Positions 1,972 through 6,393 of a DNA stretch of 7,219 bases are shown here, piece by piece (within the stretch, counting starts at the first letter, position 1; each line of letters opens with the position of its first letter). The stretch is from Acidobacteriota bacterium (GTDB lineage: Bacteria > Acidobacteriota > Terriglobia > Terriglobales > Acidobacteriaceae), in NCBI GenBank assembly GCA_021778875.1, contig JAJYBT010000116.1, positions 1-7,219 on the forward strand. Direction: 5' to 3'. The position numbers and the translations under genes are program-made. Under the pieces are notes generated by a model, which did no database searches, was not told where the DNA came from, and saw only the letters and a list, made by a program, of their open reading frames with translations.

Positions 1972-3237
1972 ATGTTCAGGGACCGATACGCGCGGTGGAT
2001 GTATGAGTGGGAGACGCGGCTGACGACACGCGATGAGAATCGCGTGGTGCGGCCGCTGGAGTGGGGCTTTGAGTGGATTGCGCCTTTTCTTGAGGCGCAT
2101 GGCTTTGGCTCTGCTGTTCCCTGCCCTGAGAACGTGCGCGACGATGCGGCGGCCGAACTGGCCATGGTGCGCATCAACCAATTGCTGATTCGCAACAGCG
2201 ACAGGTTTTTCGGTTACGAGCGGCCTGCGGACTTCCGGCTGGAGGAGCGGCATCCGGAGCTTTTCCCGACGAACGTGCGGGCGGAGACGCTGGCCCGGGA
2301 CGCTGCGCTCAAGCAGCAGGCGGCGGAGGGAAAGATTCCGCGGGCGCAGTTTTTGCGTTTCACGTCGCCGGAGCGGACGCAGTATCCGGAGAACGATCTG
2401 GTGAATGCGCGGTGGTATCCCGCGCCAGCGCATAAGGACGGCTTGCGGCCGAAGCAGGCGATTGTGGTGCTGCCGCAGTGGAACGCGGACGCCTTCAGCC
2501 ATAACGCGCTGTGCGCGATTTTCAACCGCATGGGGATTTCGGCGCTGCGGCTTTCGAAGCCGTATCACGACATTCGCAGGCCGAGCGAGCTGGAGCGCTC
2601 AGACTATGCGGTGAGCGCGAACGTGGGGCGGACGCTTTCAGCGTGCAGGCAGGCGGTGGTGGATATCCGCTGCTGCGTGGACTGGCTGGAGGAGCAGGGC
2701 TACGAGCACTTTGGCGTGCTGGGGACGAGCCTTGGCTCCTGCTACGCGTACCTGGCGAGCGCGCACGACAAGCGGCTGCGGGTGAATGCGTTCAACCATG
2801 CTTCGACGTCGTTTGGCGATGTGGTGTGGGCGGGGCAGAGCACGCGGCATATCCAGAAGGCGCTGAAGGACGCGGGACTGACGCAGGAGCGGATACGCGC
2901 GCTGTGGGCGGCGATCAGCCCGGTGAGCTACTTTGAGAAGATCATGAGCGCGGAGGCGGGCGGCTCGCAGAAGCAGGCGCTGCTGGTGTATTCCGACTAT
3001 GACCTGACGTTTCCGCGGGAGTACTCGCTGCAGGTGATTCAGGCGTTTGAGCGCGTGGGGCTGAAGTTTGAGAAGCGCGTGCTGCCGTGCGGCCACTACA
3101 CCACGGGCGAGACGCCGTTCCAATACATGGACGGGTGGTTCATGGGCTCGTTTGTGTACCGGGCGTTCAAGGCGCTGCGGGCGGAGAAGGCGGCTGTGTG
3201 CGAGGTGGCGCGGCCGGAGGAAGCTGTTTCCGATTAG
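1972..3237 (+). CDS. Alpha/beta hydrolase of the ABHD18 (DUF2048) type
   Basis: This 421-aa protein is an alpha/beta-hydrolase-fold enzyme, probably an esterase or lipase acting on an unknown acyl ester. The nucleophile elbow is GTSLGS with Ser253, preceded by a hydrophobic strand (HFGVL). The likely acid is Asp342 or Asp344 in YSDYDLTFP, and the base is His375 in PCGHYTTGETPF. IVVLPQWNAD (164-173) is the core strand and oxyanion region. The long N-terminal extension (about 1-140), the PYHDIRRPSE stretch (198-206) and the C-terminal GHYTTGETPF together resemble the ABHD18/DUF2048 family, whose human member has, as I recall, recently been tied to cardiolipin deacylation. No signal peptide is seen, so it is probably cytoplasmic. 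The start lacks a Shine-Dalgarno; an alternative Met at residue 10 is possible. It stands alone, ends in a terminator, and faces a convergent gene. The fold and triad are confident. The subfamily is less sure and the substrate unknown. Confidence 0.82.
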   Translation: MFRDRYARWMYEWETRLTTRDENRVVRPLEWGFEWIAPFLEAHGFGSAVPCPENVRDDAAAELAMVRINQLLIRNSDRFFGYERPADFRLEERHPELFPTNVRAETLARDAALKQQAAEGKIPRAQFLRFTSPERTQYPENDLVNARWYPAPAHKDGLRPKQAIVVLPQWNADAFSHNALCAIFNRMGISALRLSKPYHDIRRPSELERSDYAVSANVGRTLSACRQAVVDIRCCVDWLEEQGYEHFGVLGTSLGSCYAYLASAHDKRLRVNAFNHASTSFGDVVWAGQSTRHIQKALKDAGLTQERIRALWAAISPVSYFEKIMSAEAGGSQKQALLVYSDYDLTFPREYSLQVIQAFERVGLKFEKRVLPCGHYTTGETPFQYMDGWFMGSFVYRAFKALRAEKAAVCEVARPEEAVSD

Positions 3238-3378: not shown

Positions 3379-4698
3379 CTAATGCGAAACATCGACGGGG
3401 GTGACATCGGTTCCTGTTTGTCTGAACTCGAATCGCAGGACCCAGACGCTCGCGATGGCCTGGCCGCCCACTTGCGCAGGCTTGAACCTCCATTGGCGAG
3501 CCGCTTCGAGGGCTACTCTGCCGAAATACCTGCTTGGCCCAGCCGATTCGAACGTGGCGTCTGAAACATTGCCCTTGGGATCGACGCTGACTCGTATCTC
3601 CACGGCGACCGTGCCTCGAATGGACTCCCTTGCACTGGGCAGTACGTCGGGCAGAACGCGCTGCGCAACCGCACCCTCCATCCTGACTCCCCTGGGGGGT
3701 TCCGTGACGGGACCGGACGCCTGCGGCGGGCTTGCCGCAGGCAAGGATGCCTGACTTTTGTGCGAGCGCATTTGCAGTGCGACGATGAAACCAAGCAGCG
3801 CGAGTACGGCAACGATCATTACCGTCCCGCGCAGTTTGGCTGGCACCGCTTTGCGCGGCTCGCGGGCCGTGTCGGGAAGAGGCTGCGTCGTGCCGGGAGC
3901 GGCAGGAAGAGGCTGCGCCGGCGCGAGACGAGCCTTGACATCGGCGACGGTGCATCGGCGCGCGGGGTCATGCTGGAGACACCGCCGCGCAATGCCTGCA
4001 AAGGGCTCTGGAATGGACTCCGGCACAACCAGTTCCCTGTGTGTGGGGCTTCGCCATAGCGGCGGATGCTGGGTGAGCGCTTCGACGATAGTGACGCCCA
4101 GCGACCAGATATCCGCAGCCGGGGAGATCGTTCCGGCGGCGACTTCCGGCGCGTCATAGACACTTGGCGCGGTAGCTTCACTGCCTCGCTCGCCCGCAGC
4201 ACACAGGCCGTCCCCGGAGAGCTTCAACTGATTATCGACGACCAGGATGTTCGACGGCTTCAGGTGACCATGCACCAGACCCTTTCCATGAAGATAGCCG
4301 AGCGCATTGAGGACTGGATCGAGCATCTCTTTGGTTTCGTCGGGAGTGAGGGCCCGCTCCGGAAGAATCCCGGCGAGAACTTCGTCGGCCAATTCTGTCA
4401 CCGCGTAGAGGAGCGTGGCACCGTCGATCCGGCAATGTCCGGTGTCCAACAGGCGCATCAGGTGGGGATGCGGAAGGTTCCTTGCCAGCGCCCAGCCTGC
4501 CATGCGTGCCTCCGCGTCCGCGCCATCCGCAGGAATCAACTTGATGGCGGCCTTCTGCGGTGGGTGGCCCGGCAGTTCCGTCAGGAAGACATCACTCCGC
4601 GCAGAGCCGCCCAGCCATTGCAGGAGGGTCAATCTTCCATCAATGACGAGCCCGACCCAATCACCGCGATTTGCCGCTGTGTTCATGGTCGAAGACAT
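3379..4698 (-). CDS. Pseudokinase - transmembrane - TonB C-terminal domain fusion protein
   Basis: This 439-aa protein (from the Met at 4698) joins a serine/threonine-kinase fold to a TonB C-terminal domain. The kinase part spans about 17-260: LGGSARSDVFL (29-39) is the glycine-loop region, AAIK holds Lys53, HGKGLVHGHLKPSN (137-150) is the catalytic loop, DAPE (182-185) is the APE motif, and DIWSLG starts at 196. The catalytic Asp of HRD is His145 (HGH), and DFG reads GDG (162-164), so phosphotransfer is probably lost; Lys53 and Asn150 remain. A Pro/Ala-rich linker leads to one membrane segment (about 291-310). A second Pro-rich stretch follows, then a TonB_C domain (about 347-425) with VAVEIRVSVDPKGNV and AARQWRFKPA. 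Expected topology is kinase fold inside and TonB domain in the periplasm. The frame opens at 4788, but those 30 residues are Arg-rich, unlike a kinase, and start inside an intergenic repeat. I therefore start at Met 4698; Met 4686 is also possible. No clear Shine-Dalgarno and no ExbB/ExbD genes are seen. Confidence 0.85.
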   Translation of the reverse strand: MSSTMNTAANRGDWVGLVIDGRLTLLQWLGGSARSDVFLTELPGHPPQKAAIKLIPADGADAEARMAGWALARNLPHPHLMRLLDTGHCRIDGATLLYAVTELADEVLAGILPERALTPDETKEMLDPVLNALGYLHGKGLVHGHLKPSNILVVDNQLKLSGDGLCAAGERGSEATAPSVYDAPEVAAGTISPAADIWSLGVTIVEALTQHPPLWRSPTHRELVVPESIPEPFAGIARRCLQHDPARRCTVADVKARLAPAQPLPAAPGTTQPLPDTAREPRKAVPAKLRGTVMIVAVLALLGFIVALQMRSHKSQASLPAASPPQASGPVTEPPRGVRMEGAVAQRVLPDVLPSARESIRGTVAVEIRVSVDPKGNVSDATFESAGPSRYFGRVALEAARQWRFKPAQVGGQAIASVWVLRFEFRQTGTDVTPVDVSH

Positions 4699-4840: not shown

Positions 4841-5737
4841 TCAACGCAGCGCATTCAAATTCAGGCGCAGGAGTTTTGCGGGGTCGAGGTAGGCGCCCTG
4901 CCAGCGGACGGCCCAGTGCAGGTGGGGCCCGGTGACGCGGCCGGTGGCTCCGCTGAGGCCGAGGAGCTGGCCTTTGGCGACATGCTGGCCTTCGTGGACG
5001 CTGAAGCGGCTCATGTGCATGGAGAGCGTGTAGAGGCCGAGGCCGTGGTCGAGGATGACGCAGTTGCCCTCATAGTAGAGCGGGCGGGCGAGGACGACGA
5101 CTCCGGCATTGGCGGCGCGGACGGGCGTGCCGGGGCGGGCGCGGAAATCCATTCCTTTATGAATGCTGGCCAGTTCGCCGTTGAAGAGGCGGCGCGTGCC
5201 GAAGCTGTCAGTGGGCGCGGCGCGAACGGGCGCGCGAAAGCTGCCGAGCCAGAGGGGCGTAGCGGCGCTGGCGGCGAATACCCTCGCCTTGAGCTGCTGC
5301 TCGGCCTGGATTTGCTTGAGCGCATCGGGGCCGGGCTCGACGAAGCGGGGCGGGACGGTGAGCGTGGTGGTGCGGTAGCGGGCGGGATGGATTTCGATGG
5401 TGCGGACGATGTCGGACGTGCTGCCTGAGGCGAGGGTGAGGTGGATTGTGAGGTGCGAGGGTCCGGCGGGGGCTTCGACATCGACGCCGGCGAGCGCGAG
5501 CCATGAGTGGCCGTCGCGGCTGGGGAAGAATTCGAGCTTGCGGCCGAGCCACTCGCCGGTGACGCGAGCGGAATCATCCGCGAGGTTGAGGCGGATCAGC
5601 TCAGGAGAACCGGCCTGGACGGTTGCGGGTGTGAGGATGACCCGCTCAATCCTGCTGGGCGCAAGTGCGGATGCGGGAATGGCGCAAGCCACCAGAGAGA
5701 GCAACGCCAGGAGCCGCGAAGAACGAGAGCCGGTCAT
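4841..5737 (-). CDS. Exported M23 (LytM-type) zinc metallopeptidase
   Basis: M23 enzymes cut peptide cross-links in peptidoglycan, or act as inactive LytM activators of amidases. From the Met at 5737 the protein has 298 aa. A signal peptide (MTGSRSSRLLALLSLVACAIPASALA) comes first, then a beta-rich N-terminal domain (about 28-130). The M23 domain is at about 175-290. Zinc ligands are H193 and D197 (HKGMD) and H274; the catalytic-type histidines are H241 (MHMS) and H272 (PHLHW). SGATGRVTGPHLHW is intact, so the enzyme is probably active. The frame extends up to 5890, but that stretch overlaps the upstream repeat-protein gene and hides the signal peptide, so I reject it. The gene follows the repeat-protein gene on the same strand by 46 nt, probably in one operon. 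Its start ATG overlaps the stop of a tiny leader frame (5734-5748). Family assignment is firm; the exact bond cleaved is unknown. Confidence 0.92.
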   Translation of the reverse strand: MTGSRSSRLLALLSLVACAIPASALAPSRIERVILTPATVQAGSPELIRLNLADDSARVTGEWLGRKLEFFPSRDGHSWLALAGVDVEAPAGPSHLTIHLTLASGSTSDIVRTIEIHPARYRTTTLTVPPRFVEPGPDALKQIQAEQQLKARVFAASAATPLWLGSFRAPVRAAPTDSFGTRRLFNGELASIHKGMDFRARPGTPVRAANAGVVVLARPLYYEGNCVILDHGLGLYTLSMHMSRFSVHEGQHVAKGQLLGLSGATGRVTGPHLHWAVRWQGAYLDPAKLLRLNLNALR

Positions 5738-5783: not shown

Positions 5784-6389
5784 TTAATGGGGTCCGTGTG
5801 CTGCGTTGTGTTTTTCGCGGTAGATCTGGCGGCTGGCGCCATTCTGCTCGCGGTTAATCTGGCGGCGCTGCTGTCCGGTGAGGGATCCACCGTTGGCGGC
5901 GCGGTCGGCGGCGACCTGGCGATTGATGTTCTGCTGGTGATTTTCGGCGTGGGCCGCTTCGCCGGCGGTCATGGAGCCGCTGCGGATGCCATTGGCAATG
6001 CGCTGCTGCTGGTTGGCGCGGCGCTGGCCGACCTGATTGTCGCCGTAGTGCGCCTGGGCGGCGTTGTGCTTGTCAGCATAGATGGAGTGGCTGATGTTGT
6101 TTTGCTGGCGGTTGACGCGCTGGCGCTCCTGCGGGGTGAGCGCGCCACCGTTTGCGGTGCGGTCGGTGCGGATTTCGCGGTTGACGTTGGTTTCGCGCGA
6201 TTCGATGCGCTTGGTTTCTCCGGCGGTAAGCTGGCCGGACTGGACGCCGTTGGCGATGCGGTCCTGCTGGTTATCGCGGCGGTTGTGGATGGTGGCGGGG
6301 TTGGCCGCGGGCTGCGCGGGGGCGGGCTGCTGTGCGAAGGCCGGGGCAACCAGGGCTGCTGCGGCGAACAAGATGAGCGTCCTGTGCAT
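5784..6389 (-). CDS. Exported Q/N/R-rich protein with two 75-residue tandem repeats, function unknown
   Basis: This 201-aa protein begins with a signal peptide (MHRTLILFAAAALVAPAFA) and a Gln/Pro/Ala linker. The rest is two ungapped 75-residue repeats, residues 37-111 and 123-197, which I count as identical at 42 of 75 positions. Each repeat itself looks like two related helical units: RIANG-x2-SG-x2-TAGE, then DR-x-ANGG-x-LT-x-Q-x-R with NR-x-QN-x2-S-x2-IY and KHNAA. There are no cysteines and no further membrane segment, so a soluble, helical periplasmic or secreted protein is likely. I do not recognise a named family, although similar Q/N/R repeats with a RIANG..SG.LTAGE pattern occur, as I recall, in other soil bacteria. 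The start at 6389 is fixed by a strong GGAGGAG ribosome site and the signal peptide; the frame extends to 6449 without support. The M23 gene follows 46 nt downstream, suggesting an envelope role. Confidence 0.78.
   Translation of the reverse strand: MHRTLILFAAAALVAPAFAQQPAPAQPAANPATIHNRRDNQQDRIANGVQSGQLTAGETKRIESRETNVNREIRTDRTANGGALTPQERQRVNRQQNNISHSIYADKHNAAQAHYGDNQVGQRRANQQQRIANGIRSGSMTAGEAAHAENHQQNINRQVAADRAANGGSLTGQQRRQINREQNGASRQIYREKHNAAHGPH
5799..6281 (-). repeat. Two-copy internal repeat encoding the 75-residue units
   Basis: Copy 1 is 6057-6281 and copy 2 is 5799-6023, each 225 bp and in the same frame, with a 33-bp spacer encoding QAHYGDNQVGQ. The protein copies align without gaps. 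The substitutions are spread evenly, so the duplication is not recent. Confidence 0.8.
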
Positions 6390-6393
6390 GAAA

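Follow-up and report, generated by a model that had tools for sequence, protein, structure and literature searches.

The window, by which we mean the whole stretch of 7,219 nucleotides that was analysed, carries on its minus strand a gene whose product joins a kinase fold, a single membrane helix and a TonB C-terminal domain (TonB_C). The gene and its parts are the following:

3379..4698, minus strand: kinase-TonB_C gene of 439 residues; the ATG at 4686 is another possible start
3916..4653, minus strand: pseudokinase domain, residues 16-261
4540..4542, minus strand: K53, the VAIK lysine, kept
4483..4524, minus strand: alphaC helix, residues 59-72
4264..4272, minus strand: HGH, residues 143-145, in place of HRD
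4249..4251, minus strand: N150, the catalytic-loop asparagine, kept
4207..4218, minus strand: S161-G162-D163-G164, in place of xDFG
4144..4152, minus strand: APE, residues 183-185
4096..4113, minus strand: D196-x-W198-x-x-G201, the DxWxxG motif
3763..3840, minus strand: single membrane helix, residues 287-312, a helix in the AF2 model with hydropathy 2.55, without an S...H motif
3673..3762, minus strand: periplasmic linker of low pLDDT
3385..3672, minus strand: TonB C-terminal domain, residues 343-438, by Pfam/NCBIfam, AF2 and fold match to TonB C-terminal domains (CTDs)

The initial annotation had proposed, from the letters alone, that kinase fold, membrane segment and TonB_C occur in one protein, and the Pfam scan, the AF2 model and fold matching all bear this out. 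In the computed order, the kinase fold is followed by one hydrophobic helix and then by the TonB-CTD fold, each of which holds in the structure prediction. The kinase part is a bilobal Hanks-type fold with APE and DxWxxG (AF2, profile scan), and the TonB_C domain scores 35.7 bits against a Pfam cut-off of 24.6, with a fold that also matches TonB CTDs. No PASTA repeats were found in the protein by a Pfam scan up to E 0.1. Among homologues, the N-terminal side of the helix is the more positive one (3.02 versus 1.60 in a close set and 2.36 versus 0.82 in a wide set, both defined below), as an average from which some members deviate. The PADLOC models mad6 and PD-T4-6 also match this protein, mostly in its kinase domain.

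Elsewhere in the window, the kinase gene is immediately preceded, on its own strand, by an M23 peptidoglycan peptidase (4841-5734, minus strand). Another minus-strand gene (5787-6392) has no Pfam or PADLOC match; in its product a signal peptide and repeats are discernible by eye. On the plus strand lie a small membrane protein of the VKOR family (551-976), a protein (1060-1896) whose C-terminal domain is NO VEIN (PF13020) and which matches PDC-S36, a candidate defence protein of PADLOC, at 1.4e-107, and an alpha/beta hydrolase (1972-3237) resembling the putative lactone hydrolases of the RcgR family, under the cut-off (154.3 of 182 bits). RNA families were not found in the window. The neighbourhoods of the kinase gene were compared over 23 loci of 7 to 18 kb, with ORFs of at least 90 residues matched all against all and clusters counted when present in at least three loci. 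None of the seven other genes of the window, the M23 peptidase included, had a match at 1e-5 beside the family in the 22 other loci, so that no operon partner is indicated by genome context. No neighbour cluster extends over more than three loci; apart from the kinase gene itself and opposite-strand frames over it, which we regard as shadow frames, there are three recurring clusters, found among L059, L062, L063 and L065.

The kinase domain of the window protein lacks both the HRD aspartate and, at its own column, the DFG aspartate. Since proteins without one or more of the VAIK lysine, the HRD aspartate and the DFG aspartate are pseudokinases by sequence (PMC12599244), it falls under this definition. 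HRD has become HGH and DFG has become GDG, while the VAIK lysine, the catalytic-loop asparagine, APE and DxWxxG are intact, just as the initial annotation had read them. It had overlooked, however, that the aligned alphaC glutamate position, 68, is a glycine. Part of the Gly-rich loop is lost as well.

Two sets of homologues were used to tabulate the active-site positions. The close set comprises the best 120 of 3444 homologues, all annotated as kinase plus TonB_C; the protein of the window is itself among them (P0002), so that counts out of 119 leave it out, and with the query counted three kinase domains are present twice. Named organisms in this set are Terracidiphilus and Silvibacterium MAGs, and Terracidiphilus resolves to Occallatibacter (Acidobacteriaceae, class Terriglobia). 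The wide set comprises 48 more distant members drawn from genomes of the class; TonB_C is missing in nine of these, and one (L132) has a SPOR domain. In the best 120 of 3444 homologues, the position of the HRD aspartate is occupied by H in 100, R in 17, and N, S and D in one each, and that of the HRD arginine by G in 118. The former position is basic in 116 of 119 close homologues and 45 of 48 wide ones, with aspartate in a single member of either set and alanine in L001 and one further wide-set member. At position 162, that of the DFG aspartate, no aspartate occurs in either the 120 or the 48; the letters found in the best 120 of 3444 are S, G, C, A, V, W, T or R. Thus the whole family shares the alteration of the active site.

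What surrounds the altered positions is well preserved. K53 is a lysine in 111/119 of the close homologues (best of 3444) and 45/48 of the wide set, N150 is kept in 118/119 and 43/48, and D163 is an aspartate in 112/119 and 46/48; position 163 reads D in 113, E in 5 and G in 2 of the best 120. K53, N150 and D163 are jointly present in 103/119 and 42/48, and W69 is a tryptophan in 115 of the best 120 of 3444 and in 38/48. Together with K159 and S161, the three residues belong to the better-conserved third of the 245 kinase-domain columns in both sets, and positions 162 and 164 are variable in both. The basic position 145 is conserved only near the median (rank 126 of 245 in the close set and 88 of 245 in the wide set), since it is mostly H or R, and rarely another letter.

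These numbers bear on the suggestion that the gene is simply a kinase in decay, released from selection. The loss of the catalytic aspartates would fit, as would two family members: L029 has lost K53 and D163 too, and the L028 gene is broken up by stops. However, the same substitutions occur throughout the clade beside conserved columns (167 sequences), and the frame in the window is open. Homologues with intact HRD and DFG were sought, and not one sequence with both aspartates was found among the 119 (best of 3444) and 48 homologues, nor among all 82 matches of a search with the SPOR-bearing member L132. The HRD aspartate alone is retained in the single exceptions P0077, L032 and P0166, of which P0077 and L032 read HGD. 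Decay is therefore barely credible, and the data side with the initial annotation, which had suggested selection for a non-catalytic role.

As a control, kinase families were searched in three related genomes, G001-G003, yielding 22 loci. Three of these belong to the pseudokinase-TonB_C family and one (L119) is a match under the cut-off without motif; the other 18, all above the cut-off, keep HRD and DFG without exception, though L115 and L118, equal-length frames on one contig, are probably one gene. The window protein has a single strong homologue in each of these genomes, and the four weaker matches are canonical kinases. A tree was built from 49 family rows and 17 active kinases, and in it a branch supported at 100/100 separates the family from the active kinases. 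When members of the SPOR branch were included (20 of the 83 sequences formed by L132 and its 82 matches; L133, L122 and L028 omitted), 65 pseudokinases again lay on one side with 100/100 support, against 20 active rows (19 distinct). The pseudokinases thus form one clade versus the active kinases sampled, a small sample mostly from three genomes and separated from the pseudokinases by a long branch. A clade of TonB-bearing rows alone was rejected, as the tree needs 3 changes, and TonB and non-TonB rows together were one branch versus SPOR in 12% of bootstrap trees.

The position of D163 speaks to a different alternative, namely that the protein is an atypical but active enzyme in which D163 replaces the DFG aspartate and phosphate, AMP or glutamate is transferred without the HRD base. 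Position 163 is D or E in 117/119 of the close homologues (best of 3444) and 47/48 of the wide set, and it always follows N150 by 13 residues, in all 120, 48 and 82 sequences. This spacing equals that of Asn171 and Asp184 in PKA (residue numbers: PMC4718504), so that D163 could be a migrated metal-binding aspartate. K53 and N150 are kept, HGD occurs in P0077 and L032, and there are precedents: CASK is active without its DFG aspartate (PMC4718504), SelO AMPylates and SidJ glutamylates (PMC12599244). The alphaC glutamate could likewise have been relocated. By sequence alignment, position 68, which was located by counting backwards from HP, is a glutamate in only 3 of the best 120 of 3444 homologues and in 0/48 of the wide set, and in the family profile the alphaC region is four residues shorter than in PknB; residue 63, which is E in 107/120 and D or E in 37/48, may have taken its place. 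The register given by the canonical spacing is, however, at odds with that given by alignment. Strand beta8 comprises 157-160 in the AF2 model and thus ends at 160, and the hydrophobic register and the profile alignments place D163 on the column of the DFG phenylalanine. Moreover, a basic residue occupies the position of the catalytic base. On balance, we consider enzymatic activity of this kind rather unlikely, but deserving of some weight.

The part behind the membrane helix is more variable than the kinase domain. TonB_C is present in 60/61 aligned members. Alignment A2 leaves out L028, L040 (its frame is cut at the stretch end) and the paralogues L120-L134. The nine members without TonB_C form a nested clade with 100/100 support, in which the first copy in L128, L129 and L122 ends after the kinase; the other six have a CxxC-containing segment, to which four add another hydrophobic stretch (by eye). 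Altered-site paralogues with such a segment and a hydrophobic stretch were seen by eye in L124, L125, L127 and L128, and scans of two of them, L124 and L127, found no extra Pfam domains. In L132 (1056-2483, minus strand), kinase domain and hydrophobic helix are followed by SPOR right at the Pfam cut-off (21.0 bits). The search with L132 returned 82 proteins (P0122-P0203), 26 of them annotated as kinase plus SPOR and one (P0199) as kinase plus TonB_C; a rescan of ten gave SPOR in four (all under the cut-off), no such domain in five and TonB_C in one.

The L132-search proteins have lost most of the residues discussed above. The VAIK lysine is present in 15/82 (the alignment of this divergent branch is uncertain near K53), the catalytic-loop lysine in 4/82, the asparagine in 5/82, the HRD aspartate in 1/82 and the DFG aspartate in 0/82. 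Still present are W69 in 81, the APE glutamate in 80, and D, W and G of DxWxxG in 77, 81 and 81 of the 82. From its residues, the SPOR branch would be a more fully dead sister of the TonB-side pseudokinases. As K53, the catalytic-loop lysine and the asparagine have mostly been lost there, their presence on the TonB side is apparently more than inertia; the nucleotide-binding residues on the TonB side look as if kept by selection.

A further alternative is a static structural anchor, in which the kinase fold would be a ligand-free dimerisation or docking plate like that of EssB/YukC. The pseudokinase domain of EssB/YukC indeed serves scaffolding and dimerisation (PMC12599244), and the SPOR-branch proteins persist despite the loss of most nucleotide-binding residues. 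The joint presence of K53, N150 and D163 in most homologues, counted above for the best of 3444 and for the wide set, would nevertheless be unexpected for pure structure, and we regard a purely static role as quite unlikely.

In TonB proteins, the S...H motif of the membrane helix is needed for coupling to ExbBD. The initial annotation had considered that the protein might couple a cytoplasmic signal to an outer-membrane transporter, or else use its TonB domain as a periplasmic sensor. The former would make it an energised TonB with a cytoplasmic regulatory domain, driven by ExbBD and opening outer-membrane receptors. The TonB-CTD fold is present, as this would demand, and S...H does occur at the periplasmic edge in 2/46 wide-set helices (L025, L134) when the helix core is extended by five residues on each side (a recount in which three members without the C-terminal part were left out). 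However, the window protein has no S...H, nor does the 19-residue most hydrophobic core contain it in any of 121 close and 33 wide helices, and the margins add none in the 121 close ones; a histidine of any kind lies within the core in 3 of the 121 and in none of the 33. In G001-G003, one of 29 TonB_C loci tested has S...H (L086).

The linker may point in the same direction. That of the window protein has 33 residues and would span about 12 nm when fully extended, whereas the distance between ExbBD and the receptors exceeds ~20 nm (PMC9389320). This test is not decisive alone, because relatives with longer linkers could reach: the median length is 44 residues in the close set (range 27 to 95) and 77 in the wide set (range 23 to 123). 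Each of G001-G003 has 10 to 17 TonB_C matches, which could be taken in favour of energised TonBs; several of these proteins look secreted or otherwise anchored (by eye), so that TonB_C appears to be used broadly here. As none of the window's other genes recurs in the 22 other loci either, and as SPOR occupies the place of TonB_C in relatives, the window protein is unlikely to be an energised TonB, and opening of receptors under cytoplasmic control is highly improbable for the family. The presence of SPOR in relatives favours the other half of the earlier suggestion, TonB_C as a periplasmic sensor, or else a role as an anchor. What SPOR domains recognise is denuded glycan (PMC6895207), which by analogy suggests an envelope-reading role for TonB_C as well.

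The gene is not confined to a few strains. At E 1e-40 it was found in at least 29/80 genomes sampled from the family of G003, with one match per genome in all 29 positives, in at least 29/150 genomes from its order and in at least 3/199 from its phylum; the three phylum-sample positives all occur in the family sample too. At E 1e-25, at least 36/200 genomes from the class of G003 were positive. The lineage-wide family that the initial annotation had suspected thus exists. It is widespread yet patchy, and seems rare beyond the class.

In PASTA kinases (PknB/Stk1/StkP), an N-terminal Hanks-type kinase is joined by one membrane helix to an extracytoplasmic PASTA envelope module. The window protein resembles them in its Hanks-type fold, single membrane helix and extracytoplasmic envelope module, and among PDB sequences the family profile matches PknB best. 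PASTA kinases, however, are catalytically intact and carry PASTA, whereas the window protein has an altered site and TonB_C. From a TonB energy transducer it differs by the absence of the mid-helix S...H, the N-terminal kinase fold and the short linker. Bacterial pseudokinases are largely unexplored experimentally (PMC12599244). Of those described in that review, ActPs1-3, GLW, CP1, DYD and DLHK are likewise conserved and several are membrane-bound; the signature of HG-basic plus S-x-D is absent from them as described there, and the main text of the review contains neither 'TonB' nor 'Acidobacteri' nor 'HGH'. A pseudokinase-TonB family was not found described in the open-licence literature searched. 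We conclude that the family is real, class-level and apparently undescribed.

A basic residue at the HRD aspartate is known from the coccidian rhoptry pseudokinases ROP5 and ROP36, which read HG[R/K/H] and HGH (PMC3682881), and ROP5 binds ATP in a noncanonical manner (PMC4718504). These are, however, secreted eukaryotic proteins, and their likeness to the window family would be convergent. Replacement of the HRD arginine by glycine is found in 19 of ~50 human pseudokinases versus 8 of ~500 active kinases (PMC4718504). The style of inactivation thus resembles that of known pseudokinases, presumably by convergence.

We consider it probable that the window protein is a bitopic pseudokinase receptor of the inner membrane, one that reads the envelope and does its signalling without phosphotransfer. 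Its TonB_C domain would bind something periplasmic, for example peptidoglycan, a lipoprotein or a peptide resembling a TonB box, and the helix would relay this binding, or a clustering, to the cytoplasmic pseudokinase. With the VAIK lysine and the catalytic-loop asparagine in place, the latter probably binds a nucleotide or another anionic ligand without transferring phosphate; nucleotide binding is plausible from these two residues. The pseudokinase may then act by conformation-dependent binding of a partner, perhaps an active Ser/Thr kinase of the same cell. Some observations speak against this model: the gene is patchy, the basic position is conserved only near the median, the alphaC glutamate is missing from its aligned position, and the Gly-rich loop is partly lost. 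The canonical spacing of D163 would also leave room for metal binding and unusual catalysis.

A more far-reaching proposal, which we put forward tentatively and regard as possible but doubtful, is that receptor-like pseudokinases, forming one clade in Terriglobia, read the envelope through interchangeable TonB_C and SPOR domains. On the TonB side, an active site of inverted charge (basic at the HRD aspartate, acidic one past the DFG aspartate) would bind a nucleotide or anionic messenger and switch partners without phosphotransfer, as an independent counterpart of the coccidian HG-basic pseudokinases. The clade offers a built-in comparison, since the nucleotide-binding residues are kept on the TonB side and mostly lost in the SPOR-branch proteins. 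If the proposal is true, TonB_C and SPOR would serve a kinase-fold receptor as interchangeable readers of the envelope, in contrast to the role of TonB in transport.
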